Shown here in pieces: positions 751 to 19,958 of a stretch of 64,000 nucleotides of DNA. The stretch lies in assembly GCA_947449255.1 (NCBI GenBank), contig CANFQX010000002.1:1-64000 (forward strand), written 5' to 3'. The stretch comes from Pseudobdellovibrionaceae bacterium (GTDB lineage Bacteria; Bdellovibrionota; Bdellovibrionia; Bdellovibrionales; Bdellovibrionaceae). How positions within the stretch are numbered: position 1 is the stretch's first letter; every line of letters begins with the position of its first letter. The translations under genes were made by a program, and so were the position numbers. A model generated the notes under the pieces. It worked only from the letters and a program-made list of their open reading frames with translations. It did no database searches and was not told the DNA's origin.

Positions 751-3700
751 TCAATGACTAGAGCTTATCCACAGCTGGCGTTGAGATGTCGACGCAAACA
801 ATCCGGGGTACAAAGTTGGGTTTGCTTGAATCAGGGACCTTTGCTCTTTCATGAACTGCGACATATTTTTATTCAAAACATTGACCATTTCATCAGCTTC
901 AAATTTAAGATCTTCAAGCGTCTTTTTTTCGCGACTGTCAATTCTATCCATCAATGATCCCATGTCTTTTTCTACGACTTTGTAGAAAATCATTCCTTCA
1001 CTGTTATAGTCATGGGTGATTCTGTAGACCCCATTAAACCCAAGGTACAGTTCACTCAAGGCGACTAAATCTGTGGGATCAAAGCGATTTCCACTTTGAC
1101 GAATTGCCCGTGGCGAGGTTCCCGATAATATTTTATTAAGGAGCACCGTGCCCTTGAACTCCTTAAGGATGGTTGAAATCGCTGAACGATTGCTTTCGCC
1201 TCGTGTATTCATGTAAAAATCAGGAAACGAAGTTGGCTCAGCATTATGCATTTTTCGCTCGGCTTCTGATCTTTTAACTGTCTCAGATAGAAAGCTTTGA
1301 TGGATCTGGGATAAAAGTTTTAATTCTTGCCGTTCTAGGCTGTAAGACTTAGCAAGCTCAGTCAGGGGATAAATAAAGAGTGGACTTTTAAGTTTAACAT
1401 CGACCCCAAGATTCATACGGCGATGAAACTCTGACAAGCTGTCTGGTGTCAGCTTATTCAGCGAGTAGGCCTTCGTCTGAATACGATCAAAGATTGGGAA
1501 AGCTGTAGAAAAATCACCCAACCCGGTCACGAACTCTCCCGGTGTAGAGTTCGTAGCTATAACTACTGCAATCAAATTCGAGGCAATAATTTCATCGCCA
1601 TCCAAGAGTTGCCGTTCGTTAAGCAAAGACAAGAGTGAAGTTTTAACACCAGCTGGTGCTTTTTCAAATTCATCTAGCAAGGCAAAAAGAACATCTTTTG
1701 AAGATAAAGAACCTGTTCGATTATAAACATAGCCCTTGCCATCGCGAATGGCTTTTAAGTCAATACGACCGACGATATCACCTTCATTTGACATTGGATG
1801 AAATTGTTTAATCCAAATTGGACTGTCTGATTTCCCATTTTCAAGCAAGGCCTTGCTCAAAATCGAATTTGTGGCTGCCAGTTGGGCTTCATTCAGGTTT
1901 TTTACCTCAGCCTCAAGCAAGGTTCTTGTGAACAAGGTTTTTGCGGATCCCGGTGGACCAAAGAGCATTACATTCGTTCTGTTCATCATCGCTGAAAAAA
2001 GAGCCTTTACATTCGACTCAGACTCAAGAAAGCGATATTTCAGCTCATCAAAGGCGTTTCGTAATGAGACAGCAGAGGCATCTTCTATTTTCTCTTTGTC
2101 ATTTCGTTTTATTGATTCAGAAAGCAGAGCGTTGGCGCGACGGGCTCTGTTTTCATAATACTGCTCCGAACGGTCATAGGCTTCCCGCGTGGTCAGAGTC
2201 ATTTTTGTATTTTTTAACTGCGCCATCATTGTATTTGAGGCAGCGAGAAATTCAGCGTGCGATTCATCAATCGTTGTTAACTGTTTTCTGGAAGCCTCAC
2301 GCAGTGTGGATTCATTTCCATTGAGAAGCTCATTCATTCGACCCGTGAGTTTGTAATTGAGGGGGACATCATGTTTCGCTGACTTAAGTTGCCCAAGGTG
2401 AATTTGACCGAGTGTTTTATTGAGATCCCCATATTTTTGATACATCGGATGATCTGTGTCCATCAGTAAATTTTCAGTTGAAAATCCTATTTCTTCACGC
2501 ACGTCGGGATCAAGTGTTAATAGTTTACCTGACTTAATGTCAAATTTGACATGACGTTTTTGTCCCGTTCGCGCAGAGACATAAGTCAGCATTTGCAGAT
2601 CCTTATTGTACTCACCTCGCGAAAGATTCAAACTTGATAATTTTTTGTTTTTTGAATTAGAAAGGGGAATTGAAAATGCGCCATTAGAATTGACCTGATA
2701 AAAGCTGACCTTCACCCCTTTATCAGCAACCATAGTGTCAGGTCCCCCTTGCAAAAGTGCAGGCGAGAGATCCACTAAATCTTTTGGTCCCATGGTCAAA
2801 TTGAGGGACTCAAAGGGAACCCCCGCCATCATTTGTCGAACTAAAAATGAAGACTTCCAAAGCACCAATAACTTTGACTGAGTTCGCGTTGATCCAGAAA
2901 AAGGAGGGAAATAATCTGGGGCCGACTGGGTCCCCTGAACGTCAGCTTGAGCTTTCGCTAATTTGTCCGTGTAATACCGATCCATATGCAGCGAAAGTGT
3001 CGTCATGGCCGCCAACATCTGATCGGGAATTTTGACCTGCTTCATGAGTGGACGCAAGCCTCTGACATCAATCACCGTGAACTTGTTTTGGCCTTTTTTA
3101 GATTCAATTTTCTCAAGCATTAAAAAAAGACTGTCGGCATTTTCAGAAGCATTGATCACATGAACTTTTAAGGCAAATCGGTCAATCAAGGCTCTGCGAC
3201 CTCCAATTTCATGAGGCAACGCCTGACTGATCATCTCTCCAAGTGTCGCATTTGTGGTTCCTGCTAAGGACTCAAGGGCTGTTTGCACCACTTTATTGCC
3301 GGCCAAGGCTTGCCGTTCATTTAAGATGGATAGCAATGTCATTTGCAAAGCGACTGGCGCCTTTTCAACTTCATCAAGTATAGCAAAAAGATTCTTATCA
3401 CTGATGAGGGCCTTTGAATAATCGATCTCATATCGACCTTGCTCAGTGAATTTAAATGGATCTGGACCGCCCAAGATTTTGGTCTCGCTTAATGTCGCGT
3501 GAAACTGCTGCGTAAAGATCTGTTTTGATGGATCGTTATTAACTTTATCTTCCCAAATTGTTTTGAGCAACTCCATCTTAAAGGCATCAATATCAGCGCG
3601 AGCCGGAGCCCCATGGACCGCTCTTAATTGAGCTTCAAAGATATTTCGAATCCCAAGAGTCTTTGCGCCACCACCCGGCCCATCGATCAGAATATTTTCC

Positions 3701-4002
3701 TTAGCCATCAAGGCTGTGAGTGTGTAGTAAAAAACATTATCTAAGCCATAGACATCAGCCATCAATTCATTGACGCCGTGGCGAGAGATCTCCCATGAGG
3801 CTGACAACCTATTAAGATGGTTCAAATCATCCGCCATTAGGCCTGCAGGGCCTTTTAGTGCCTCATTTAAAGGTTGGTTGATAATTTGATCAGTAAAAAT
3901 TCCGTCACAGAACGGATGGGTTGTGGCAAAGGAATGACTAGACAGGTTTAACAGTAAAAATCCAAGAGCTGCTGCAGATCTATAATTTCTAGAGAATTTC
4001 AT
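751..4002 (-). CDS. Exported protein with two MoxR-type AAA+ ATPase domains
   Basis: The 1083-residue protein begins with a basic n-region, a hydrophobic core and an SFA-TT cleavage-like site, then CDGIF. Domain 1 has Walker A GPGGGAKT near residue 108 and Walker B FAILDEVEKAP near 205, followed by the MoxR hallmark LLSILNERQ and an arginine-rich IGGRRALIDRF. Domain 2 has Walker A FGPPGSAKT near 680, Walker B FALLDEFEKAP near 776, LLSLLNERQ and a sensor-like VVIATNSTPGEF. MoxR proteins normally remodel partners in the cytoplasm together with VWA proteins. A Sec-type signal on such an ATPase is odd, because the periplasm lacks ATP. The gene lies between two WD40 paralogs and near the exported VWA gene at 5883. 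The domain calls are secure; the export call rests on the N-terminus only. Confidence 0.88.
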   Translation of the reverse strand: MKFSRNYRSAAALGFLLLNLSSHSFATTHPFCDGIFTDQIINQPLNEALKGPAGLMADDLNHLNRLSASWEISRHGVNELMADVYGLDNVFYYTLTALMAKENILIDGPGGGAKTLGIRNIFEAQLRAVHGAPARADIDAFKMELLKTIWEDKVNNDPSKQIFTQQFHATLSETKILGGPDPFKFTEQGRYEIDYSKALISDKNLFAILDEVEKAPVALQMTLLSILNERQALAGNKVVQTALESLAGTTNATLGEMISQALPHEIGGRRALIDRFALKVHVINASENADSLFLMLEKIESKKGQNKFTVIDVRGLRPLMKQVKIPDQMLAAMTTLSLHMDRYYTDKLAKAQADVQGTQSAPDYFPPFSGSTRTQSKLLVLWKSSFLVRQMMAGVPFESLNLTMGPKDLVDLSPALLQGGPDTMVADKGVKVSFYQVNSNGAFSIPLSNSKNKKLSSLNLSRGEYNKDLQMLTYVSARTGQKRHVKFDIKSGKLLTLDPDVREEIGFSTENLLMDTDHPMYQKYGDLNKTLGQIHLGQLKSAKHDVPLNYKLTGRMNELLNGNESTLREASRKQLTTIDESHAEFLAASNTMMAQLKNTKMTLTTREAYDRSEQYYENRARRANALLSESIKRNDKEKIEDASAVSLRNAFDELKYRFLESESNVKALFSAMMNRTNVMLFGPPGSAKTLFTRTLLEAEVKNLNEAQLAATNSILSKALLENGKSDSPIWIKQFHPMSNEGDIVGRIDLKAIRDGKGYVYNRTGSLSSKDVLFALLDEFEKAPAGVKTSLLSLLNERQLLDGDEIIASNLIAVVIATNSTPGEFVTGLGDFSTAFPIFDRIQTKAYSLNKLTPDSLSEFHRRMNLGVDVKLKSPLFIYPLTELAKSYSLERQELKLLSQIHQSFLSETVKRSEAERKMHNAEPTSFPDFYMNTRGESNRSAISTILKEFKGTVLLNKILSGTSPRAIRQSGNRFDPTDLVALSELYLGFNGVYRITHDYNSEGMIFYKVVEKDMGSLMDRIDSREKKTLEDLKFEADEMVNVLNKNMSQFMKEQRSLIQANPTLYPGLFASTSQRQLWISSSH

Positions 4003-5854: not shown

Positions 5855-5882
5855 GGTAAATTAAAAATAACCCGAGGTGCAT

Positions 5883-8800
5883 GTGAAGAATAAAATAATG
5901 CGAAGCCTATCTACATATATGGTCATCTCGTTTTTTATTTTAAACCCAGCCATGGCTGCGGATAGCACGAATAAATGTTCAAATATTTTTAGCTCAACAA
6001 ATGATCATCAGGGTTCTGTTGATCCAAGCGGAAATGACGATCAATCCTTAGAACTTCAAAGCAAGGCGCTTTTAGAAAGCTCTTTGACAAACATTCAAAA
6101 ACAAATCGAGGAGCTTCGCGCAAGGCCTGAGGTCGTTGGTAAGAAACATCCCAGACAGGGTTTTTTGAACTCAATAGATGAACTGGGCAAATTTCAAAAC
6201 AAGCTTTATGACGCTTTCCCCCTCTTAAAAAGGTTTGAGCGGCTTGAAGTTGAGATCGGCCGCCGTGGCCAGCAGATCACACTCGAAAAATTCAATCTTT
6301 ATCACAAAAATTTAAACCGCTACACTTTTCAAAATAACGATAAAAACAAAGTTGAATTACAGTTCTGGGCCAAAATTGAAGCCCTTGAAATCCTCTTACG
6401 TATTAGTCAGAATATTTCGCTGCAGCAAGGACAACAAGGACAACAAGGAAAACAAGGACAACAAGGACAACAAGGACAACAAGGACAACAAGGACAACAA
6501 GGACAACAAGGACAACAAGGACAACAAGGACAACAAGGACAGCAAGGACAACAAGGACAGCAAGGACAAAAGGACCAACAAGGACAAAAGGAAAATAAGT
6601 CTGCTAAAGAATCGCTCCAAAAGTTGGATGAGCAGTCTTTTGATGAATATGACATCCATAATAAAGATTTGCAGAGCTCATCTTCAAAGGAAAGACCTCA
6701 GTTCGCTTACATGTATTTGACTGCGGCTCCAAAAAGACTTTTGCGCGCAAGCTCGTTCGATACTATTGACCAACACATCAAAAAGATTTCTTCAATTCGT
6801 CAACCGCGTTTGCCTCATCTTGGAAACTTGCAGGGCACTGCATTTTCGCAATCGATGCTCATCATTAATCAACAAAAGGCACAAGTTCTTACGATTCCTT
6901 ACCCCTACGGCGTGCATCCAATAGTCGGTGACTATAAGGACTTTACAGTTCGCGAGACTTTTTCAGATGAATTTGTTGTTCAATCTAAAAACCAAAATCC
7001 ACTTCCGAAAAAAATAAAAATTGGAATGGAATCTGAAACTGCAACTCAGTTAACTATGGCACAAAGGATGGAATACACTAAATCGAGTGGTATTCAGCTC
7101 CAGCAATGGCCGGACCATGTCCAATCGGGTGTTGCCGCATCTAAATCAGAAAAAAACTCAATCAGCCAAATTGATGTTCTCAGCAACTGGTTCCAAAAAA
7201 ATGGGCCCTACCTTTACAACTCACGAAACAAGGGAATGGAAGAGGCCTTCGATCAGGTTCAACAGAATATTCAAGCTCAGATGGGTTCTAAGCCCTTTGA
7301 ACTTATCCTAGCCGGTGAAAAAATGTTTAACTGCGATGGGGCCGCCTTGATCGGCGCCCGACTTGTTCGCGATCAATTTGGCTTACCCGCCCGAATTGTT
7401 GGCGGACGAACTATTTCAGCCCAGCTTCAAAATAAGAAAGGCTTCAAAATCCTGGCTTCGAACATCAAAGATCCTCGTCATGCTTGGGTAGAAGTATTTA
7501 TTCAAGGACGATGGATGCCATTTGATTTCACGCCCTCAAAAAATGCTCCACAAAATGACAGCAACGGGGATGCCAGTAAAAATCAGCCACCACAAGATAG
7601 CGATTCAGCCTCAGGTGATCAACAAGGTCAACAAGGTCAGCAGGGTCAACAAGGAGGCCCATCTGGACAAGGGGGCCAAGGCTCCGGTGGAAATTCAGGG
7701 GGCATTGTAAACAAAAGTGCTCGTGGTCATGGTTCAGAGATGAAACCCAATGGAAATCACGATCAGTCAGGTGACAATAAGGATTCGAAAGATTCGAAGG
7801 ACGCCAAAGATTCTAAAGATCAAAAGGGTTCGGATTCAAAAAATGCAACAGAATCAAAGGACAATTCAACTAAAACTCAAGACCCAAATTCTACTTCAAA
7901 GAATGGCGAGCGCAAACGATCCAACAATCGACAAGACTTGAATCAAGAAAATATTCATGAGGTCAGTCGTCTGCCCAAAGACTATGATTCAATTGAGGGT
8001 GCTCTCATCAGACAGATTCTGTCCGATGCACTGACGGACTTTAAAACCAAGGGGCCTTCAAGTCTGGTGACTATCGACGTCGAAGCCAAATTAAGTAACA
8101 TTGGAAAACAAAGTCGATTCAAAGAGAAAGCTAAGCTCGATCTGCGGACTGATCTTGAGCCCTTCTACCGTGACAATGACAAGTCCATATCTGAACTGCT
8201 TGCTGAAATTAAAAGCGGTATTTATCGTGATCCAACGACGAGCTTCCGCAAGCTTTCAGTCATCGTCCATTTCTTTAAGTCAGTGAACCGATACAGAGAA
8301 CTGTCGGATTATGAAAAAGAATTTGTGCGATCAAGCCAGGAAATTTTGCACAAAATGTCCAGCTATCGCCACCGAAATTCTGGTCAGCATGATCTAGTTG
8401 AAAGAATGGTCAAAAATCTTCCCGGCGAATTGATGAAAGAGTACATTTTGAAAAAGTATCCAGAAGGATTAACCATAGGATCGAGGGATCAAAAGGCCCT
8501 TTTCGATGAAATCCAACATGGTGATTGGATGGCGGCTTTTGAGGCTTCCTTGATTAATAAACATTTTAATTTTCTTTTGGATGCAGAAAAAGAATCACGA
8601 GTTCGTCGAATCCAAACTATTTTAAGATCCTATAAACGAGAACGACAAAGCGAAGGGCTGGTCACTGCAACATTAAAGGATATTGCTGACTTTCAACGGT
8701 GGATTTTAGATCCGGAAGTCAGTAACGACACTGCCATGACCTTTCTTTCAAAGCTCATCAAAGATGAACAATATATGATGGGAAATAGAGAAATGATCAA

Positions 8801-9770
8801 TAGCCCAGGGCGGACGCAACCGATCGAGCGCAAACATACAAACGTCTTTTTCGACATCAGCGGCTCAATGAGCGGCGATAAAGCTGAAGTCCAATCCGCA
8901 GCCTTGATTGCGATGGTGGATCGATTCCTTTCAGAAAAAGATCCCTATGGAAAACCTTTGCACACCGTGATGTTATTCCCCTTTGGCGACAGTGTTGGTC
9001 AGGGCATTCTGATTGAGAGTCGTGAACAGGCTTTGTCCTATATAAAAAGCAATTTCAATCGCCCGACAGCGTCCAACGAAGGCACTGCGTTTCAGCCTTG
9101 TTTTGACAAGCACTTTGAAGTCATCCGTAAACTTGCACAGGATAACAACTTAAAGCTTAAAATACGAAAAACAAATATGGTTCTGATTACGGATGGAGCA
9201 GCCGATGTCAATTTAGAAAAGGTCAAAAAGGATCTAAACAGTTTGCCTGAATATATCAGGACCTTTTTCAATTTGGTTACAATGAGCAATGAAGCTAATC
9301 CCGACCTTGAAAAAATAGTTGCAGCAACGAACTCAGAAAAATCTAAGGCAATGATCACCCAGATTTCTGATCAGCAAATGAGTCAATTTAAAAATGAGGC
9401 ACGCAACCCAAAGATTGACCCTGAAGCCTTTGTCTTTGAAAAGACTGAGAACCTCTCAATGGATATCGTACAGCAGGTGCAAAAGCTCCAGATTCCCGCT
9501 TCGCCAGCTATCGATTACCATTCAGTTCTTTTAAAAAATAAAGATCGAATCAAGGGTGTTCAAAATATGGAGCCCAATACGTCTGCATTGACTGAACTGG
9601 TGAGATTGAGAGAGCAAATGAAGGACTCTAAATTGCCAAAAGAATTAATGATTAGACATCTTGCGACTGTACTAGAAAATTATCCACGTTGGTTTAATCG
9701 AAATCTCAGCCAATTAAGTTATGCCGAAGAAAAAGTACTGCATGATATTATTGATAAGTTGGTGCAATAA
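5883..9770 (+). CDS. Exported transglutaminase-like / von Willebrand A fusion protein
   Basis: About 1295 residues. I chose GTG 5883 because GAGG lies 5 bases upstream; GTG 5877 would overlap that site, and ATG 5898 lacks one. Order (numbered from 5877): signal peptide ending NPAMAA, CSNIF motif, helical region, a GQQ tract (about 185-238), a middle region, a transglutaminase-like core with Cys in NCDGAAL near 485, His in DPRHAWVEV near 535 and Asp in MPFDFTPS near 548. Then come a long Q/G- and D/S/K-rich linker (about 560-690), a helical region, and a VWA domain from about 985 with MIDAS motif DISGSMS. MoxR gene clusters commonly encode a transglutaminase-fold protein and a VWA protein separately; here both are one exported chain next to an exported MoxR protein. 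Confidence 0.88.
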   Translation: MKNKIMRSLSTYMVISFFILNPAMAADSTNKCSNIFSSTNDHQGSVDPSGNDDQSLELQSKALLESSLTNIQKQIEELRARPEVVGKKHPRQGFLNSIDELGKFQNKLYDAFPLLKRFERLEVEIGRRGQQITLEKFNLYHKNLNRYTFQNNDKNKVELQFWAKIEALEILLRISQNISLQQGQQGQQGKQGQQGQQGQQGQQGQQGQQGQQGQQGQQGQQGQQGQQGQKDQQGQKENKSAKESLQKLDEQSFDEYDIHNKDLQSSSSKERPQFAYMYLTAAPKRLLRASSFDTIDQHIKKISSIRQPRLPHLGNLQGTAFSQSMLIINQQKAQVLTIPYPYGVHPIVGDYKDFTVRETFSDEFVVQSKNQNPLPKKIKIGMESETATQLTMAQRMEYTKSSGIQLQQWPDHVQSGVAASKSEKNSISQIDVLSNWFQKNGPYLYNSRNKGMEEAFDQVQQNIQAQMGSKPFELILAGEKMFNCDGAALIGARLVRDQFGLPARIVGGRTISAQLQNKKGFKILASNIKDPRHAWVEVFIQGRWMPFDFTPSKNAPQNDSNGDASKNQPPQDSDSASGDQQGQQGQQGQQGGPSGQGGQGSGGNSGGIVNKSARGHGSEMKPNGNHDQSGDNKDSKDSKDAKDSKDQKGSDSKNATESKDNSTKTQDPNSTSKNGERKRSNNRQDLNQENIHEVSRLPKDYDSIEGALIRQILSDALTDFKTKGPSSLVTIDVEAKLSNIGKQSRFKEKAKLDLRTDLEPFYRDNDKSISELLAEIKSGIYRDPTTSFRKLSVIVHFFKSVNRYRELSDYEKEFVRSSQEILHKMSSYRHRNSGQHDLVERMVKNLPGELMKEYILKKYPEGLTIGSRDQKALFDEIQHGDWMAAFEASLINKHFNFLLDAEKESRVRRIQTILRSYKRERQSEGLVTATLKDIADFQRWILDPEVSNDTAMTFLSKLIKDEQYMMGNREMINSPGRTQPIERKHTNVFFDISGSMSGDKAEVQSAALIAMVDRFLSEKDPYGKPLHTVMLFPFGDSVGQGILIESREQALSYIKSNFNRPTASNEGTAFQPCFDKHFEVIRKLAQDNNLKLKIRKTNMVLITDGAADVNLEKVKKDLNSLPEYIRTFFNLVTMSNEANPDLEKIVAATNSEKSKAMITQISDQQMSQFKNEARNPKIDPEAFVFEKTENLSMDIVQQVQKLQIPASPAIDYHSVLLKNKDRIKGVQNMEPNTSALTELVRLREQMKDSKLPKELMIRHLATVLENYPRWFNRNLSQLSYAEEKVLHDIIDKLVQ
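6429..6572 (+). repeat. Nine-base minisatellite GGACAACAA, 16 units
   Basis: Sixteen consecutive 9-base units code for GQQ (variants GKQ and GQK), with degenerate continuation to about 6593. Because the unit is a multiple of three, gain or loss changes the linker length but not the frame. A shorter GQQ run recurs near 7620-7660 in the same gene. Confidence 0.95.
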
Positions 9771-11322: not shown

Positions 11323-12975
11323 TTAGAGATAGAGTTCTGCAGTTGCAGGCGCTATGATATCCAATAAATTATTAAATGTACTTGCAACTTGCATCGCTAC
11401 AGAGGGGCCTTCTTTGCTATCCACTTTATTGATTTCGCCATTTTTCTTATACGAGACTTGGATTGTTCCAAGACCAGGACGACTTACAACTGAAGGTTTA
11501 CCATAGCGCTCTTCATAATCAATCTTAACAACTTTTTTGGCCTGATCAATGATTGTCGCAATTCGACCTCTATTGTCGTAAGTCATGGATATTTTTTGGC
11601 CATCACTGTTTTGCGCAGAAGAGAGGTTGCCTTTCGCATCATAATTGAATGATGTTTTTTTCGTCGCAACTTTGACTCCTTTTGCATTTACAAAAGTAGA
11701 GCTGACCTCATTGACCTTTTTAAATTTCTGATCATAGGCATAAGCCATTCGCACATTCGCATTCGATTTAGTCTTTACCAAACCATCTGGATAGTATTCG
11801 AAAGTCACACGGTCCGTATTTTTTCTGATTGAAATCGGCTTGCCGAACACCTCATGATAACTAATATCCGTGACATTTCCTGTGATATTAGTCAAAACAC
11901 GCTGAAGAAAGACTTGGCCATCGGGTCTTTGCTGATGCCAGAATTCATACCTATTGTCAGCGATGACTTCTTTACCACAAGTTCGTTTAACCGTAGACCA
12001 ATAGTGATTTTTTGGATCATTCGGAGAAAACTCATAAGTGTAAGATTCAATACACTTATCCCTGTCCGTGAAAGCCAGAACCCAATCATTTTTTTTGTCA
12101 TATTTCAAAGCAACAAAAGTATTATCCGGCCAGTTTGCCTTGGTTAAGTTGTGAAGCTCATCGTACTCATAGGTATAGGTCTTTAACCAAGCATTCTTCA
12201 CCGAAGACAAATCATCGAGGTTTGCAAAAGTATATTCGGCCATCAAGCCATTTGGACCCGTAATCGATTTCACTTTCTTATTTTGAAAGTATTTAAAAGT
12301 GAGTCGACGTCCTACGTTGTCTTCTATTTGTGAGATCAAATCTTTATCATAAGCAAATTTTAGAACATTTGAATTTTTGTCATAGATGTGGGTCAACTTG
12401 CCTTGCAAATTGTAGCGTTGCGAACTTCCATCTGGCAAATTTCGAGTGTAATAGGTTTTATTGAATACAAAATGTTCAACCTCTCGGCCGTTGGCATAGA
12501 ATGTCGCCCCCTCACGAACGGGTGGGGTTAATCCATATTTTGTGGCGTATTCAGTTCTTACATTATCGTCTTCAATCAACTGACTTTTTAAAGTAACAAA
12601 AAAAGCTTCGGTATTTCCGACTTTCTTTTCTGCTTTAATTTTTGCTATGATCGAATCCACAGTTTTTTCCACATCTTTTCGACCGACTTCGCGCTGTGAA
12701 TAGGTGACTTCCAGCCCCCCACCACATTCTTTAACTTTGATATTTCCCTCAGCATTTATTTCCATGCTTGTTTCAAAGTCTGAACACCATCCGAAACCAA
12801 ACATTCCATTAAAAAGAGATCGGCTGTTGTAGGTTCTAGTGATTTTCAAATCATAGCCAGTCCCCGGTACATCCATATCAACCCAGGTGTTGGAATAATT
12901 TGCATTCTTCATGTCTACAAGTGCATAGGCTTGCGCCGACAAAAATAGGGCTGCTGCCAAAAGTATCTTATTCAT
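11323..12975 (-). CDS. Exported RHS/YD-repeat protein, candidate Bd0109-like
   Basis: The 550-residue protein has a short signal peptide (residues 1-18, ending AQAYA). Near residue 50 it has the RHS-type N-terminal signature YNSRSLFNGMFGFGW, and many YD-type repeats follow to about 500 (for example YDKNSNVLKFAYDKD, YDAKGNLSSA, YDNRGRIATI). It lacks the long shell and variable toxin tip of polymorphic RHS toxins, so it is more likely a wall- or surface-associated structural protein. The position between the Tad operon and a small exported protein matches Bd0109 of the Bdellovibrio hit locus. That equivalence is inferred from synteny. Confidence 0.82.
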   Translation of the reverse strand: MNKILLAAALFLSAQAYALVDMKNANYSNTWVDMDVPGTGYDLKITRTYNSRSLFNGMFGFGWCSDFETSMEINAEGNIKVKECGGGLEVTYSQREVGRKDVEKTVDSIIAKIKAEKKVGNTEAFFVTLKSQLIEDDNVRTEYATKYGLTPPVREGATFYANGREVEHFVFNKTYYTRNLPDGSSQRYNLQGKLTHIYDKNSNVLKFAYDKDLISQIEDNVGRRLTFKYFQNKKVKSITGPNGLMAEYTFANLDDLSSVKNAWLKTYTYEYDELHNLTKANWPDNTFVALKYDKKNDWVLAFTDRDKCIESYTYEFSPNDPKNHYWSTVKRTCGKEVIADNRYEFWHQQRPDGQVFLQRVLTNITGNVTDISYHEVFGKPISIRKNTDRVTFEYYPDGLVKTKSNANVRMAYAYDQKFKKVNEVSSTFVNAKGVKVATKKTSFNYDAKGNLSSAQNSDGQKISMTYDNRGRIATIIDQAKKVVKIDYEERYGKPSVVSRPGLGTIQVSYKKNGEINKVDSKEGPSVAMQVASTFNNLLDIIAPATAELYL

Positions 12976-13007
12976 TATTACTTACCTCATGTAAGAAACT
13001 TAAAAAT

Positions 13008-13883
13008 TTACACTTTTATAGTAACAAGCTTTTTGATGACGATGCCACCGATTATTTGAAGGGCTAGCATCACAAACAGTAACACTAGACCAAGGGTTGT
13101 ATTAAACATGGGTTTAATAAAGTTTGGATCCACCAATAAAAAAACGCCCATCAAAATAAATGGGATCAAGGTGACTATAATTCCTTGGGTTAATCCCTGG
13201 GCAGTCAGTGCTTGAATTTTTTTCTCGACCTTCTGGCGTTCCCGGATCACATTCACTATCGTTGCAAAAGTTTCCGCTAAATTTCCGCCAGTTTCCTTAA
13301 GAATATTTATGGATGTCACAAACATTTGTACATCGGGCCTGGGGATGCGATTTCCCAGATCATTCAAAGCACTTTCAAAACTATCACCCACTTGCATTTG
13401 AAAGAGCACCTGACCAAATTCTCTGCTCATGGGATTTCCCATAATTTCAACAACACGCCTCATGGACTCTTGGGGATTAGATCCAGCTTTGATTCCATTC
13501 GCCATGATCGTCAGTCCATCAACCATTTGATTTGTAAACGCTGTGCATTTGCGATCATAAGCCATTTTTACTAAGAGCAATGGCAATTGCCAGCCTGCGA
13601 TGGTCACTGATGCCCCGAAAAAAAGACCCATCAAAACTTTAGGCCAAAACAGCAAGAAAACCAGGCCTCCCAGTCCAAAACTCAACAACAGAATCATGAT
13701 CGTGACACGCTTTTCATCCACATCGTCTGCCATTAGCCTTAAAAGTTTAATAACCTCAGCACGCTGTCCTAGGCTGCGCTTTTGCAGCCAGGCAATCACC
13801 CTGTCAGACCAGAAATATGTGATAAAAAAAACGCAAATTCCAAACAGAGGAATCATGATCCATTCATTAAAAAGAAAATGCAT
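13008..13883 (-). CDS. tadB: Tad pilus inner-membrane platform protein (T2SF family)
   Basis: The 291-residue protein carries the type II secretion F domain: ANGIKAGSNPQESM, then FESALNDLGNRIPRPDV and LKETGGNLAETFATI. It has N-terminal membrane helices and two at the C-terminus. TadB and TadC form the platform on which the TadA ATPase acts. Only one such protein is encoded in this cluster. It starts 3 bases after the stop of the TadZ-TadA gene, so the two are probably coupled. I cannot tell TadB from TadC with certainty. Confidence 0.85.
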   Translation of the reverse strand: MHFLFNEWIMIPLFGICVFFITYFWSDRVIAWLQKRSLGQRAEVIKLLRLMADDVDEKRVTIMILLLSFGLGGLVFLLFWPKVLMGLFFGASVTIAGWQLPLLLVKMAYDRKCTAFTNQMVDGLTIMANGIKAGSNPQESMRRVVEIMGNPMSREFGQVLFQMQVGDSFESALNDLGNRIPRPDVQMFVTSINILKETGGNLAETFATIVNVIRERQKVEKKIQALTAQGLTQGIIVTLIPFILMGVFLLVDPNFIKPMFNTTLGLVLLFVMLALQIIGGIVIKKLVTIKV

Positions 13884-13886
13884 AAA

Positions 13887-16139
13887 TCACCCTATCTTCT
13901 TTGTTGGTGCTATCATCCCGGGCATTTTTGGACTGGCAATATTTGAAGGACCTGGAGGTTTTACCGTCGCCAGATTTTGTGGATTTGCCACACCTGGATC
14001 ATTAGAAAATATCTCGCGCGGAATAATAACGCCCTTGTCGCTTAATTTTTGAATAAAACTTGGAATTGTACCCGTTGCTTGAAAAACCCCCTGGATTTTT
14101 CTATTCTTGTCATAACCAGTTTCTTTAAACCTAAATATTTCTGCAAGAGTAACGATCTCTCCCTGCATGCCAGCCACTTCGGTCACGCTCAAGATCTTAC
14201 GAGTCCCATCAGACAGACGTGAGATTTGCACAATCAGGTTAACGGCACCTGCAATTTGTTCTCTGATCGCTCGAATTGGTAAATCCATTCCAGACATCAA
14301 GCACAGGGTTTCTAAACGGGCGATGCATTCCCTAGCGCTGTTGGCATGAGTTGTTGTCATTGAACCATCATGGCCGGTGTTCATGGCCTGCAGCATATCT
14401 AGGGCAGCACCATCTCGACACTCTCCAACGATGATTCGGTCTGGTCGCATCCGCAATGCATTTTTAATAAGATCGCGAATCGTGACAGAGTTTGAGCCCT
14501 CCATGGAAGAGGGACGAGTTTCTAGACGTACAACATGCTCTTGTTGCAGCTGCAATTCGGCCGCATCCTCAACAGTAATGACTCGCTCATTGCTGGGAAT
14601 AAATGTTGAAAGCATATTTAACAGGGAAGTTTTACCTGAACCCGTGCCACCTGAAATGACAATATTTAAACCGTTTTCAGAACATATTCGCAAAAACTCA
14701 ACAATATTTTTATTGATACTGCCGTATTCAATATATTTTTCAGGAGAAATTCCACCCTTTTTAAATTTTCGAATCGTCAATGCCGGGCCATCAATAGCAA
14801 GGGGTTCAATAACCGCATTCACCCGTGATCCATCTTTCAAGCGGGCATCCACGTAAGGAACGGATTCGTTGATCTGACGTCCCAACGGAGTCACAATTCT
14901 TTCAATAATTCGCCGAAGATGATCATTTGAAGTGAAATGAACGGGACTCAGCATAACTTTTCCGCTTTTTTCAACGAAAATTTTCTTATACCCATTCACC
15001 ATGATCTCAGACACTGATGGATCTGCCAGAAGATCTTCCAAGGGACCCAAACCAAGGGCTTCTTCGAGGACCTCTTTAATTATTTTAGATCGCTCCTCGC
15101 GAGCGAGGTCAGGGGCCTCTTTGTCCACGATTAAAGTGATCTCACGCTTGGTTTTTTCTCTGATTTCCTTTTCTTTATTTTCATCTTTTGTATCCATCAA
15201 CAACTTCTTAAGGTCGACAGTTCTGATCAGCTCATTGTGCAATCGTATTTTTAAAATAGTCCGAGAGTCCATGCCGTTGGCAGACACTGAAGCTGGCGAA
15301 GATCCTCCACCGGCCAAGCTGCTGGCACCATCTGCAGCTCCAGATGTATTCAAAGCATTTGGCTTTGGACGAGTTAGATTTTTAAGTCTTTGCAGGACTC
15401 CGCCCGTTAATTTTCGTACCACATCATAATATGCTGCGGTCACTGGAGCTTTGGGAGAGGACAATACAAAGGGCGTCAACTTTTGCAACGACATCATCGA
15501 AGTGATTTCATCTTGAGGTATAATTCCAAGATAGGGCAATTGCAGTTGATTAGATATGGCCTGTGGTGAAAGTCCGTTGTTAGAAGCTTTATTAATTACA
15601 AGCTGAAGCATATCTTTGGGAAATGTTGCAGAGAGCAGTTCATTCACCAGGCGTTGGGTTTGCGCCACAACGAGGACTTCGGGAGTCGCAACCATGATGA
15701 TGGCCGTAGATTCCTGCAGAATGGCCATTTGCGCCGGGCCCAAGTCATTACCTACATCGATAACGATATATTTAAAAGCGCGACTAAAAAAATCCGTCAA
15801 CTTTCCAATCATTTCCGATGATATATTCATGCTTTCTTCTGGACCACGAACGGCTCCGACATAGGCAAGCCCCGAACTGTGCATTGAGACAAGAGTATTC
15901 ATAGGTTGAGAATTTAATGACCCTTGAAAACCCGCAAGTTCCTTTAAAGTTTTAGTTGGTTTAAGTCCCATAATAACATTTTGATCGCCGATGCTTTTGG
16001 AATCTGCATCGATCAAGAGGACCTGCGTGCGAAGCTCCATCATAAGTGCACATGCAAAATTTGCTGCAAATACACTTTTGCCGACGCCACCTTTGCCGCC
16101 GACCACTGCGATCACATTACAATTTGTGTTGATAGCCAA
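13887..16139 (-). CDS. Fused TadZ/CpaE-like and TadA/CpaF pilus ATPase
   Basis: The 750-residue chain is read from a TTG at 16139 with GGAGGT upstream. Residues 1 to about 260 are a MinD/ParA-type ATPase with deviant Walker A VVGGKGGVGKS, as in TadZ/CpaE, which localises the Tad machine. A low-complexity G/S/A linker (about 265-300) follows. The rest is a CpaF/TadA secretion ATPase: EIMVNGYKKIFVE, Walker A ISGGTGSGKT near 495, RMRPDRIIVGECRDG, and the His-containing TTTHANSA. TadZ and TadA are usually separate genes. The C-terminus adds a Pro/Ala-rich tail. No stop or frameshift separates the halves. Confidence 0.92.
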   Translation of the reverse strand: MAINTNCNVIAVVGGKGGVGKSVFAANFACALMMELRTQVLLIDADSKSIGDQNVIMGLKPTKTLKELAGFQGSLNSQPMNTLVSMHSSGLAYVGAVRGPEESMNISSEMIGKLTDFFSRAFKYIVIDVGNDLGPAQMAILQESTAIIMVATPEVLVVAQTQRLVNELLSATFPKDMLQLVINKASNNGLSPQAISNQLQLPYLGIIPQDEITSMMSLQKLTPFVLSSPKAPVTAAYYDVVRKLTGGVLQRLKNLTRPKPNALNTSGAADGASSLAGGGSSPASVSANGMDSRTILKIRLHNELIRTVDLKKLLMDTKDENKEKEIREKTKREITLIVDKEAPDLAREERSKIIKEVLEEALGLGPLEDLLADPSVSEIMVNGYKKIFVEKSGKVMLSPVHFTSNDHLRRIIERIVTPLGRQINESVPYVDARLKDGSRVNAVIEPLAIDGPALTIRKFKKGGISPEKYIEYGSINKNIVEFLRICSENGLNIVISGGTGSGKTSLLNMLSTFIPSNERVITVEDAAELQLQQEHVVRLETRPSSMEGSNSVTIRDLIKNALRMRPDRIIVGECRDGAALDMLQAMNTGHDGSMTTTHANSARECIARLETLCLMSGMDLPIRAIREQIAGAVNLIVQISRLSDGTRKILSVTEVAGMQGEIVTLAEIFRFKETGYDKNRKIQGVFQATGTIPSFIQKLSDKGVIIPREIFSNDPGVANPQNLATVKPPGPSNIASPKMPGMIAPTKKIG

Positions 16140-16225
16140 TGCAGACCTCCAGATTACCTTTCGGTATTCTAGGTTGTTTTTTGAACAAGACTTTAGTTGA
16201 GTCTTTACAAGGTACTGAAGCGTTA

Positions 16226-16250
16226 CCTCAGAGGAGTAACCCCTCTAAGG
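16226..16250 (-). terminator. Intercistronic hairpin between cpaC and tadZ-tadA
   Basis: CCTCAGAGG and CCTCTAAGG form a 9-position stem with one mismatch around a 7-base loop, 12 bases after the secretin stop codon. No T run follows. It may act as a partial terminator or mRNA stabiliser that sets secretin above ATPase levels. Confidence 0.35.
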
Positions 16251-16261
16251 CTTTATACAAA

Positions 16262-17794
16262 CTACTCTCGCAATCGGAATTTCTTTTTGATCTGTTCAGA
16301 TCCAGTGCTAGCCGAAGTCTTTACGACGGGCGTAACAAAAACCACAAATTGGCTCTGATCTTTGGAAAATTCCTTTGAGGCATAGAGACTTATAATAGGA
16401 TTCTTTTGGCCCGACGGCCTGTTGTAGCCCGTGTTTGAGGAACTTCGAATAAGTCCACCGACAGCCGCACTTTGCCGATCTCTAACCACCACTGAGCTAG
16501 ACATTTCATTTGAGCTTGTGATTGGCGCACCAGTCGAAGTGGCTCCTATCATACTGCTGACTTTAAATGACATCACCATTTGAACACTCCCTGATTTTTC
16601 ACCAGTCAGAGTCGGGGTGATCGCAGAGACGATACCAACTTCTGCAAAAGCTGTTCCCTGTGTGCCATTCTGACCAATAACCGCATAGGGTTGATTGGTC
16701 ACTTGTTTAATTTCGCCTTTTTTTCCATCTTCAACAATCAGACTCGTACTCTGTAAAATACGCGCATGACCATGTTGTTTTGCCCAATTCAATTTAGGCA
16801 ATAAGTTTGAAACAGTGGAAGTTAACGAAGTTAAAATTCCACCTGGTGAATTGCCACCCCCAGAAACCGTCATTTGCGATTGGTCACTTAGCTCTGGCGT
16901 AAACTGAAATTTAAAAGCCTTCGAATAATCTTTATTGAGCTCCACATAGTGCACCACCATCTGGATCATTTTTGCTGGCGGTTTTGCCGCAGCTTCTTTA
17001 ATTTGAATTAAATTGATAACCCCATCATTAGCGGGTTTGCGTTTCTTAATAACGCCCTTTTCTTCGGCAGCCTCAACCACGATGTCGGGCAGATAGGTCT
17101 TGGCGATGATTTCAGCTCTGATTTTTTCTTCTTCATTGGCAGCCATGCCTTGCAAAATAATTTTATCATTGACGGCCCGAACTTCGATTTCTGGATTATT
17201 GATATCTCTGGCAATGAACTCAGCGATTTTCTTTTGAGCTAATGGGCTTAGCGTAACCAAAGACGACGCCTGATCCCCGAACTGTTGCACGACATTATAG
17301 ATGCGCGCTAAATCCTTGGGCAGTAAGATCTGACCATCAACGACAACTTTGTTATTAACAATTTTTATATTGATACCTTCGACATCACCTAATAAGGCCC
17401 GCATTTCTCGAACGACTTTATCAAGTTTGCTTTTCTTAATATCAATTCGGTACTCAACCACAATTCGACCGTTGCGTTTATCGTGGATTGTCAGTGTAGC
17501 AAAGCCCTCATGATTGGGCGTAAACCTGATGACGTTCAACTCTTTGGCGAAAGAGGCTGTCACAAGTCTACGAAAATCACCCTTAAATTCAACATCAGCT
17601 GGAATCGGAGGCAGTTTTTCGTCATGCTCTATACCCAGTGTCAGATTGATAAATTTTCGCGAACGAAAAACACCAAATCCACTCGTCGAGGGCTCTGATG
17701 CCGTTGGATCACTTGCTGTCAAATCATCCTCAGCAAAAACAACACCACCACAAAGACTGAAAATCAGACTTAAAGTGAGAAGTTTACAATTCAT
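16262..17794 (-). CDS. cpaC: Tad pilus secretin
   Basis: The 510-residue protein has a signal peptide ending GVVFAE, an N-terminal pilus-assembly domain, a BON-like region (NNKVVVDGQILLPKD, then VNDKIILQGMAANEEEK) and a C-terminal secretin domain (MVVHYVELNKDY, LVTNQPYAVIG-like segment, VGIVSAITPTL, SSSVVVRDRQSAAVGGLI). It should form the outer-membrane pore through which the Flp pilus passes. GGGGGA lies before the ATG. It is followed by cpaE/F-like and preceded by cpaB in the same direction, the usual order. Confidence 0.92.
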   Translation of the reverse strand: MNCKLLTLSLIFSLCGGVVFAEDDLTASDPTASEPSTSGFGVFRSRKFINLTLGIEHDEKLPPIPADVEFKGDFRRLVTASFAKELNVIRFTPNHEGFATLTIHDKRNGRIVVEYRIDIKKSKLDKVVREMRALLGDVEGINIKIVNNKVVVDGQILLPKDLARIYNVVQQFGDQASSLVTLSPLAQKKIAEFIARDINNPEIEVRAVNDKIILQGMAANEEEKIRAEIIAKTYLPDIVVEAAEEKGVIKKRKPANDGVINLIQIKEAAAKPPAKMIQMVVHYVELNKDYSKAFKFQFTPELSDQSQMTVSGGGNSPGGILTSLTSTVSNLLPKLNWAKQHGHARILQSTSLIVEDGKKGEIKQVTNQPYAVIGQNGTQGTAFAEVGIVSAITPTLTGEKSGSVQMVMSFKVSSMIGATSTGAPITSSNEMSSSVVVRDRQSAAVGGLIRSSSNTGYNRPSGQKNPIISLYASKEFSKDQSQFVVFVTPVVKTSASTGSEQIKKKFRLRE

Positions 17795-17857
17795 AAATCC
17801 CCCTAATTGAACATGGGCCTTCAGTTCCGAACAAAAAAATAATCATGACAACATTAA

Positions 17858-18790
17858 CTACAATCTATGGAAACCGTTCTTACGACCTTGCGGAGGCGGA
17901 GCCACACGCTGTTGCGGTTGTGGGTTTGGCATCATATTTGGTCGCGCTGGAGAAGGAGCCGCAAACGAAGGAGTTCCCACGGATCCCATCGCAGCACTGT
18001 CCAAGGTCACCACGGGTTTACCCAAGACTGAATCCGATGTAGAGCTTGGCAAGCGCACAGGAATAGTTCTGTCACTTGGATTCCTGAGCGCGAAAAAAAT
18101 ATTTCCTGGCGAAGTGGACAAAATATAAATTAAATCTTGCGCCTCTTTAGGTGTCGCTTCGACCGTAATCGTTGTGTATTTCGTATCGCCCGTGAGGGCA
18201 ATTTGGCTTAAGTTTTTACCGGATGAATCAAGCTCAAACATGCGCGGAATATTATTCACGATACTTAGTCCCGTGGCCAATATCACCACATCACTCATCA
18301 TCGCAAACACTTCACGTTTTTGATTCACACCTTTACCGCTGTCGACCGCAGCATAGATGTCCACGCGATCTCCAGGGCGGATTAATTTAGCAACAGCGCG
18401 AACCTCATCGACAGGAATGGTGATGGCCCTTTTACTGGGAGCCACCTGAAGGGAAATCCCTGTGTCAGGTCCTGGAGTCAATAGATTGTTTTTTAAAATC
18501 ATTTGCCCTTTTTTGATTGGAACAGCAGCCACATTCCCGATGATTTCATCTGGAATCGTCACCGCATCAGGTTGAATAAAATCACCTGGCATTTCTTTGG
18601 TGTCGACAACGGTGTCATAAATGGTCTGCATTTCAGCAATATCTTCTTTGGCAATGACGACCCGTTTTGTAGAGCCGTATCTTTTATCGTACTCGGCTTT
18701 TTTTTCTTGGGAATAACTGTACAGCAGAAAGGTAGCAAAAATTCCTGCTGACACGGATATAATAAAATTTCTTGTCTCGTTAGATCCCAT
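17858..18790 (-). CDS. cpaB: Tad pilus assembly protein CpaB/RcpC
   Basis: From ATG 18790 (AAGGAG 4 bases upstream) the protein has 310 residues; a longer reading to 18826 would overlap the preceding gene. It has one N-terminal membrane helix (FIISVSAGIFATFLLYSY), a SAF-like domain (VVIAKEDIAEMQTI) and an RcpC-type segment (RPGDRVDIYAAV, TTITVEATPKEAQDLIYIL). The C-terminus is rich in Pro, Gln and Ala. CpaB helps assemble or stabilise the secretin. The gene starts 8 bases after the TadE-like gene. Confidence 0.9.
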   Translation of the reverse strand: MGSNETRNFIISVSAGIFATFLLYSYSQEKKAEYDKRYGSTKRVVIAKEDIAEMQTIYDTVVDTKEMPGDFIQPDAVTIPDEIIGNVAAVPIKKGQMILKNNLLTPGPDTGISLQVAPSKRAITIPVDEVRAVAKLIRPGDRVDIYAAVDSGKGVNQKREVFAMMSDVVILATGLSIVNNIPRMFELDSSGKNLSQIALTGDTKYTTITVEATPKEAQDLIYILSTSPGNIFFALRNPSDRTIPVRLPSSTSDSVLGKPVVTLDSAAMGSVGTPSFAAPSPARPNMMPNPQPQQRVAPPPQGRKNGFHRL

Positions 18791-18798
18791 GATGCTCC

Positions 18799-19320
18799 TT
18801 AAATTCCACAGTTTGAATCCAGACAAATTCCGTAAGACACCTTAATCCAAACAGGATTCGCTCCCACTTTTTGATTGCGTTGTGAATCGACGATAGTTTT
18901 GATCTGTTCATTATGAATAGTAACGCTGCCGTCTGCGACGGTTTCCGCGGCTTCTTTGCCTGAGTTGCTTTGGAAGAAATCGATGGGTCTGGTGGAGGCT
19001 GTAAAGTTCTCACCATTTAGCTTTTTTTCGGATGTAACTCCATGAAAACGCAATTTTATTTTCTCATAATGGATATCTTTCCGCTCAGATTGGTTATTCC
19101 GAAAATAGGTTAAGTTCGCCCGGTGATTGAAAGTGCTAAAGGCATAATTTCTGGCCGCAATGGAATTCATAATCCCACTGTGAATAGTTCCAAAGAAACC
19201 CAATGAAAAATTAACCAAAAGAATAATCACTATTATAATAGGAATCATTTCAAAAATAGCCATTCCATTTTGATTATTTAAAGGACAAAAATAATTAGGG
19301 GGATTTTTTGGAATCAGCAT
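18799..19320 (-). CDS. TadE-like pseudopilin
   Basis: The 173-residue protein has a prepilin-type leader: QNG followed by MAIFEM, with Glu at +5 after the putative cleavage, then a hydrophobic helix (IPIIIVIILLVNFSLG). The C-terminal part is soluble and contains two cysteines in the last dozen residues (SYGICLDSNCGI). TadE and TadF are minor pseudopilins of the Tad system. The gene overlaps the preceding gene by 7 bases. Confidence 0.75.
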   Translation of the reverse strand: MLIPKNPPNYFCPLNNQNGMAIFEMIPIIIVIILLVNFSLGFFGTIHSGIMNSIAARNYAFSTFNHRANLTYFRNNQSERKDIHYEKIKLRFHGVTSEKKLNGENFTASTRPIDFFQSNSGKEAAETVADGSVTIHNEQIKTIVDSQRNQKVGANPVWIKVSYGICLDSNCGI

Positions 19321-19958
19321 CCATTGTCCTCCAGGGGTATATATTTATCTGAAGCGGCTCGACCTAGTTCAGAGTATCTATTTGATAGACCTAAAATAGA
19401 AGTATTGCGCTCTTTGACTTGGTCTAAGCACTCTACCTGTGATGGCTCACGAAAAATAAAACTTGTCAGATAGGCACTAAATCCCTCGTCTGGATTTTCC
19501 GAGGTACTTCCTAAAAAAGGTATTTTTTTATTCAAGATAGTTGGCTTAAATAAAATTTTGACACCTGAAAATGGCGGGGCATGTGGTGCTAAATTTATCG
19601 GATACTCTGAACTAAAATCGGACCCGTCTTTTCCGCTTTTAATTACGGGGCGCTCTAAGACAAACCAACTGCTGCCTGAACCAGTTGTGATAAAATTTTT
19701 AAAGGCTGTATAACTTAGAATTTCTTTGTATTTATCCATACCCATTTGATTTTGCTTGTCGGGATCAATGTGTCCAGCGGCATGGGCTCGTGCTACTGAA
19801 AATGCAATATACTGAGCGACTTCTGACATGGAAAGAGTGAAAGTTAAAGAAAAAAAGACAATACAAAGCCCCGCGCACAAAGTGAGTGAAAAAATAAAAT
19901 CAGCAGAGATCATTCCGCTTGTATTTCTAATAAATTTTTTCTTTTCCTGTACTTTCAT
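19314..19958 (-). CDS. TadF/TadE-like pseudopilin with Asp at +5
   Basis: The 214-residue protein has the leader NTSG followed by MISADF. The position normally held by Glu5 of the mature prepilin is Asp. A hydrophobic helix follows (FSLTLCAGLCIVFFSL), then a soluble domain with two cysteines. It lies within the Tad operon between two other leader-bearing proteins. The Asp substitution could alter N-methylation or pilus incorporation. Confidence 0.7.
   Translation of the reverse strand: MKVQEKKKFIRNTSGMISADFIFSLTLCAGLCIVFFSLTFTLSMSEVAQYIAFSVARAHAAGHIDPDKQNQMGMDKYKEILSYTAFKNFITTGSGSSWFVLERPVIKSGKDGSDFSSEYPINLAPHAPPFSGVKILFKPTILNKKIPFLGSTSENPDEGFSAYLTSFIFREPSQVECLDQVKERNTSILGLSNRYSELGRAASDKYIPLEDNGC

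Follow-up and report, generated by a model that had tools for sequence, protein, structure and literature searches.

To our knowledge, all bacterial MoxR-vWA machines investigated to date are cytoplasmic. AAA+ motors need ATP, which is normally available inside the cell, and we know of no source of ATP outside the bacterial cytoplasm. A locus at the start of a contig from a Pseudobdellovibrionaceae bacterium (the window, a stretch of 64,000 nucleotides that was analysed as a whole) raises the question of what a MoxR-type ATPase and its partners may do when all of them carry export signals. The initial annotation had proposed that an exported chain containing both a transglutaminase (TG)-like and a vWA domain, encoded beside an exported AAA+ protein and two WD40 proteins, belongs to a MoxR/vWA machine relocated to the envelope or secreted. 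The features of the locus are listed in Table 1.

Table 1. Features of the locus, with positions in the window and the evidence for each.
Feature	Position	Strand	Evidence or remark
Exported-type TG-vWA protein, 1297 aa	5877..9770	+	ORF, profile matches, alignment, structure comparison
Predicted signal peptide of TG-vWA protein, ~residues 1-27 (cut NPAMA/AD)	5877..5957	+	Sequence; heuristic
(GQQ)n collagen-like run, TG-vWA residues 185-232	6429..6572	+	Absent as a conserved feature in relatives
TgpA-periplasmic-domain-like region (beta-rich part and transglutaminase fold), residues 255-557	6639..7547	+	Profile, alignment, Foldseek, structure comparison
Candidate catalytic residues of the TG region: C486, H535, D550	7332-7334, 7479-7481, 7524-7526	+	
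vWA domain, residues ~984-1172, MIDAS D993/S995/S997, T1070, D1106	8826..9392	+	Alignment, AlphaFold model, structure comparison
Exported-type tandem-AAA+ MoxR protein, 1083 aa	751..4002	-	Single mature Cys (FCDGIF)
MoxR AAA+ domain 1	2878..3801	-	GPGGGAKT; AILDE
MoxR AAA+ domain 2	1183..2079	-	GPPGSAKT; ALLDE
Exported-type WD40 protein, 498 aa	4163..5659	-	Seven full blades of 41 aa; signal peptide followed by LCSNIF
Second exported-type WD40 protein, N-terminal 244 aa	3..734	-	Gene runs off contig start

That TG and vWA folds occur in a single chain linked to MoxR is nearly certain, as profile and structure comparison bear out; its export is a prediction. The Transglut_core model of Pfam matches residues 486-550 at 1.2e-5, which is above the curated cut-off, and homologues reach up to 1e-12, while the Pfam VWA models match homologues at 1e-7 to 1e-9 and give no match to the window protein itself. 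A search of PDB sequences with the TG-vWA profile retrieved TgpA (9.5e-5) and no vWA chain; the vWA fold was recognised by structure comparison, in which residues ~984-1172 of the AlphaFold model fit many vWA domains with Z values of ~15-16. This model has a mean pLDDT of 68, with values mostly between 70 and 90 in the TG and vWA domains, and contains a long disordered linker. Foldseek also found TgpA (1e-7), and residues 6-308 of the model, corresponding to 255-557 of the window protein, align with the TgpA periplasmic domain with a Z value of 16.0 (251 aligned residues, rmsd 5.2 Å). The catalytic-type Cys, His and Asp and the intact MIDAS described initially are highly conserved: in an alignment of 16 sequences C486, H535 and all five MIDAS residues show no variation, and 15 of the sequences retain D550. 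The protein therefore has the vWA fold with the MIDAS pattern D-x-S-x-S…T…D as well as the fold and the Cys-His-Asp triad of the transglutaminase-like superfamily, and its TG-like region is a putative protease or transglutaminase. The ~125 residues C-terminal of the vWA domain are predicted to be helical, and hydropathy reveals no TM-like segment in the mature protein. Its N-terminus is a signal-peptide-like segment, MHVKNKIMRSLSTYMVISFFILNPAMA, followed by the predicted cut and the sequence ADSTNKCSNIF, in which Cys34 (5976-5978) is at least 90% conserved in the alignment. Note that the ORF has alternative in-frame starts at 5883, as used in the initial annotation, and at an ATG at 5898. Matches to the Pfam Collagen and NCBIfam Scl models correspond to the (GQQ)n run, which is not kept in relatives, and an identity as collagen adhesin was rejected.

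The neighbouring AAA+ and WD40 genes are arranged as previously described, all on the minus strand. The best Pfam family of the MoxR protein is bpMoxR (PF20030, 2.9e-24), a name derived from the MoxR-vWA-beta-propeller ternary systems (PMC7159879), and bpMoxR is also the best family for every exported-type MoxR homologue scanned. Because the same profile matches ordinary cytoplasmic MoxR in nearly every genome of the class, such a match alone is not specific. An ordinary MoxR locus is also present in the same genome, on contig C15, and its MoxR protein contains no signal-peptide-like segment. Of the 33 loci compared, the window among them, 7 are incomplete because the contig stops within the vWA gene. 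Among the 26 informative loci that remain, MoxR is adjacent to the vWA gene or one gene away from it in 25. Walker A GK(S/T) and Walker B DE are kept in 26 of 26 MoxR proteins, over 37 P-loops. Distances within the MoxR family correlate with those within the vWA family (Mantel r 0.89, p 0.0001, 22 loci), which is no proof of contact, since co-inherited neighbours would show the same. With the TG-vWA profile, members of the family were detected in 20 of 141 genomes within the order and in 30 of 369 within the phylum. We also scanned 84,980 species for the joint presence of two short peptide patterns, an approach that may have missed distant relatives, and obtained 19 loci; almost all of them bear the labels Bdellovibrionales, Bdellovibrionota, Bacteriovoracia or Oligoflexia, and a few are labelled 'Deltaproteobacteria' or 'Proteobacteria'. 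One subgroup (L016, L076, L078, L096, L097) has a vWA protein without detectable TG region. Neither a description of an exported MoxR in Bdellovibrio nor a report of an exported MoxR combined with a TG-vWA protein and a sensor array was found in the open-access papers searched.

The system is larger than the initial annotation saw. Across the assembly gap, at least three more WD40 paralogues with 60-65% identity are encoded at the start of contig C26 (locus L033, 1-3825), so that the island spans at least 13.6 kb and comprises the genes for MoxR, TG-vWA and five or more exported-type WD40 proteins, a lower bound given that the assembly breaks inside the WD40 array. In all 23 congeners examined, which lack the TG-vWA family, the gene for the response regulator located 3' of TG-vWA (9894 in the window) lies ~1.4 kb from the homologue of C26:5090-6946, and in the one congener read in detail it lies 44 bp from the homologue of C26:3837-5012. 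Since the flanking genes adjoin in the congeners, the window contig (C2) and C26 flank one insertion, whose site is empty in these 23 genomes. A plasmid origin was rejected, with no match obtained, and so was a phage origin, the only match being weak and covering 17% of MoxR. A motif scan showed no DGR reverse transcriptase nearby.

Most loci encode one to six or more exported-type array proteins of ~390-550 aa in tandem genes, while a separate array protein is missing from some. At the C-terminus, the array proteins carry WD40 repeats (window, G060, G087), another beta-propeller (G040, G212), an FGE-sulfatase domain (G352, G133, G212 and, weakly, G161), LRR (G044) or a region with an ankyrin-like match (G273), and the model of one array protein (pLDDT 87) consists of a helical N-terminal domain and a propeller. 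The exchange of modules is apparent at locus L092, where a common N-terminal domain is followed by FGE (8e-29) in one array protein and by a propeller (3e-48) in its sibling. This N-terminal domain belongs to a single family with members in six genomes (HHalign, 81-99.8% over a chain of links), which is undetectable in the WD40 proteins of the window, G060 or G087; a single N-terminal domain for all array proteins was rejected, as the G000, G060 and G087 types have no HHalign match to the main family. A second family connects the N-terminal domain of the G060 WD40 proteins (HHalign, 97.4%, 1.2e-11) with the MoxR C-terminus of G070 and its relatives, which also carries FGE (4e-29), and this fusion ties the array proteins to MoxR. 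Beta-propellers fused to MoxR were considered for G054, G061, G140, G270 and G341 as well, where the tails are strand-rich, and were discarded as unconfirmed by Pfam. Identity among the 18 complete WD40 blades from the window genome amounts to 62%, to the same degree within and between proteins, and five of the 41 blade columns are notably variable (H+3, +21, +5, +23 and +2; entropy 2.5-3.2 bits versus a median of 0.9). These columns fall on the ligand-binding face of WD40 propellers. It is highly probable that the loci represent a three-part system with swappable array proteins in which all parts carry export signals, and the swapping suggests recognition of changing targets.

A role in conflict may be proposed by analogy. 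The initial annotation had seen a likeness to vWA-MoxR conflict modules 'only in outline'; the likeness holds and was understated, considering that the AAA+ protein is closest to bpMoxR and has partners with FGE and beta-propeller domains. The system may then defend the carrier cell against phages or competitors at the level of its envelope, as an exported relative of the MoxR-vWA conflict systems and not as a tool of predation. The sporadic island with its empty site and the swappable sensor modules agree with this, as do the relatives of the parts in proposed conflict systems (PMC7159879, PMC10907252). However, PADLOC matched known defence systems in a generic or marginal manner at most, a nuclease or pore effector was not found, and the system has so far been detected in only one phylum, among predators and their relatives. 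We consider such a defensive function rather unlikely.

Signal-peptide-like N-termini occur in nearly all parts of the system throughout the family, as called by a crude heuristic and motifs. A Cys is located within the first 20 mature residues of 74 of the 75 system proteins with a signal-peptide call and without lipobox, versus 24 of 92 other signal-peptide-bearing proteins encoded by neighbouring genes in the same loci (Fisher p 7e-25, with paralogues that are not independent). It is the sole mature cysteine in most MoxR proteins, and the feature is not universal, being absent at loci L113 and L114. The overall Cys contents per 100 aa are 0.15 (MoxR), 0.19 (vWA) and 0.39 (array proteins), compared to 1.05 in the other signal-peptide-bearing proteins of the same loci. 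The charge before the hydrophobic segment exceeds that after it in 64 of 87 proteins, with a positive mean before and a mean near zero or negative after the segment, as would be expected if the bulk of the proteins lies outside. Together with the linkage of MoxR and vWA and their correlated distances, these N-termini, the Cys depletion and the mostly positive-inside charge support the proposed relocation of the machine to the envelope or the exterior at the level of sequence, and export via Sec is predicted. Neither of the two outcomes named in the initial annotation as counter-evidence, a lack of the transglutaminase or VWA fold and a gene unlinked from the AAA+ gene in relatives, was obtained.

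The coexistence of export signals and intact ATPase motifs poses a real puzzle. That ATP is used outside the cytoplasm of the producing cell appears doubtful, and it is no more than a tentative proposal that a complete AAA+ machine with swappable sensor arrays hydrolyses ATP there, possibly within prey and with prey ATP. The exported parts might form a complex with a structural or adhesive role that turns over no ATP, with the AAA+ fold kept as scaffold and a surface coat of WD40, FGE or LRR adhesins cross-linked by the transglutaminase-like domain. Such a complex would accord with the lack of known extracytoplasmic ATP, the collagen-like and low-complexity linkers, the arrays of adhesin-like repeats and the retained single Cys, which fits disulfide assembly, but it is unlikely in view of the Walker motifs, whose conservation in all MoxR proteins, including both AAA domains of the window, would hardly persist under relaxed selection, and of the invariant vWA MIDAS. 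Alternatively, the parts might leave the predator, assemble in the prey cytoplasm and run on prey ATP. The phylum of the carriers is known for bacteria with a prey-invading lifestyle, and delivery into prey would explain why intact ATPase motifs occur alongside export signals; yet no translocation route into prey was identified and most carrier MAGs need not be predators, and we consider this improbable. Finally, uncleaved N-terminal anchors on an ordinary membrane-bound, cytoplasmic MoxR-vWA chaperone would restore the ATP supply and could be invoked because the signal-peptide call is crude and 23 of the 87 proteins break the charge rule, but the mean charges, AxA-type sites, strong Cys depletion, the closeness of the TG region to a periplasmic domain and the ordinary C15 MoxR without such a segment make this quite improbable.

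Our preferred reading is that the island encodes an exported, recognition-armed three-part relative of the MoxR-vWA ternary systems, and the chances that it works from sensor to TG domain as outlined below appear evenly balanced. The components and their linkage, the catalytic and MIDAS motifs, the module swapping, the MoxR fusion and the empty site come from sequence or structure comparison. Each array protein would act as a sensor that docks to the machine by its helical N-terminal domain and uses its C-terminal module, of the repeat or lectin-like type and in the window WD40, to bind a target located outside the predator cytoplasm, possibly prey or phage. Together with the vWA domain of the TG-vWA protein, the tandem AAA+ MoxR would form a remodelling couple, which pulls on or releases a bound peptide once a sensor engages its target. 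This step may present the target to the TgpA-like Cys-His-Asp domain on its long flexible tether, or activate that domain, which would then cleave or cross-link the target. The conserved Cys after the signal peptide may provide a disulfide tether from part to part or to an envelope partner, and the most likely place of action would be the predator envelope or the entered prey compartment, where ATP may be available. That the system recognises an extracytoplasmic target and hands it over to the TG-like domain is a proposition we would neither favour nor disfavour. A family in which motor, co-chaperone and sensors all bear export signals while the ATPase motifs are intact poses a testable question about ATP supply: if exported, it would amount either to a new mode of running an AAA+ motor extracellularly or to the delivery of a motor into prey, and sensors of proposed conflict systems (FGE, WD40) would thereby be linked to an extracytoplasmic setting.

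A view on known systems places the parts in context. TgpA is a membrane protein and separate from any vWA domain. The TG region of the window protein and the beta part preceding it match the periplasmic domain of this transglutaminase-domain protein (6g49/6g4h), whereas here the region resides in a soluble chain fused to vWA, without N-terminal transmembrane helices as judged by hydropathy. The WD40 sensors of fungal NLRs (HET-D/E; PMC4986451, PMC12222747) likewise consist of repeated blades with variation concentrated in few columns, in the fungal case at few face positions (PMC4986451), but no NACHT linkage exists here, and the blade identity of the window proteins is below the 85% by which high internal conservation is defined in fungi. 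The VMAP ternary systems with FGE/CLec sensors (PMC7159879, PMC10907252) also combine MoxR, vWA, a peptidase-type domain and FGE-type modules in one locus. In contrast to these, Pfam scans of the system proteins gave no VMAP family and no VMAP-C, the gene order differs from VMAP-MoxR-vWA, the peptidase-like domain is located on the vWA protein, the MoxR carries an export signal, and no reverse transcriptase was seen nearby by motif scan; one DGR-diversified sensor adjoining a MoxR ATPase does carry a signal peptide, with no exported MoxR noted there (PMC10907252). The beta-propeller MoxR-vWA ternary systems (subsystem 4; Kaur et al., 2020, PMC7159879) resemble the locus in their bpMoxR-type AAA+ protein, vWA partner and propeller proteins, and also in the Ala preceding the P-loop Lys, found here in 33 of 37 P-loops; their frequent variant GXXXTAKS occurs in full in only a few relatives and not in the two window P-loops. 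Their vWA component strictly contains a beta-propeller C-terminal to vWA, which is absent from the window TG-vWA protein with its TgpA-like region, and their third component has a variable N-terminus with C-terminal TPR and propeller. The array proteins here have an N-terminus common to paralogues and a variable C-terminus; a propeller is present and TPR is not. Export signals on all parts, the tandem AAA+ protein and the arrays of separate sensors are further differences. As the propeller after vWA is absent and VMAP-C was not found, we assign the system to neither of the published subtypes, but by its shared parts it would work like a MoxR-vWA ternary system.

Two loci (L113 and L114) encode MoxR and TG-vWA proteins that carry signal peptides but are devoid of the conserved N-terminal cysteine. 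In genome G044, an ORF at the contig end matches FGE-sulfatase (1.1e-18), and the exported MoxR includes, in its N-terminal part, a brief segment resembling FGE, SNRVIRGGSWYGNASNLRSAAQG. Locus L072 encodes an exported-type protein that is over 2000 aa long, matches no Pfam family and resembles the array proteins at its N-terminus.

Coordinates of the features discussed
Feature	Location	Components
Exported-type protein (over 2000 aa)	L072, 12953-19000	
FGE-sulfatase ORF	L014 (G044), 14600-16105	
Exported RHS-repeat/DUF6531 protein	window, 11323-12975	
Tad/Flp pilus locus	window, 13008-19958	TadB-like, secretin, RcpC-like, TadE/F-like; CpaF-type ATPase with ParA-like part at its N-terminus
nadA-mglA-recR-like block	L065 (G087), 16027-18971	
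nadA-mglA-recR-like block	L033 (window genome), 11349-14111	

In the window, the RHS-repeat/DUF6531 protein adjoins the pilus genes. A comparison of G087 with the window genome indicates that the neighbourhood of the system is shared, whereas the insertion point differs. The nadA-mglA-recR-like block adjoins the system in G087, and in the window genome this block and the array are some 7 kb apart; its neighbourhood is perhaps a hotspot for insertion of the system.
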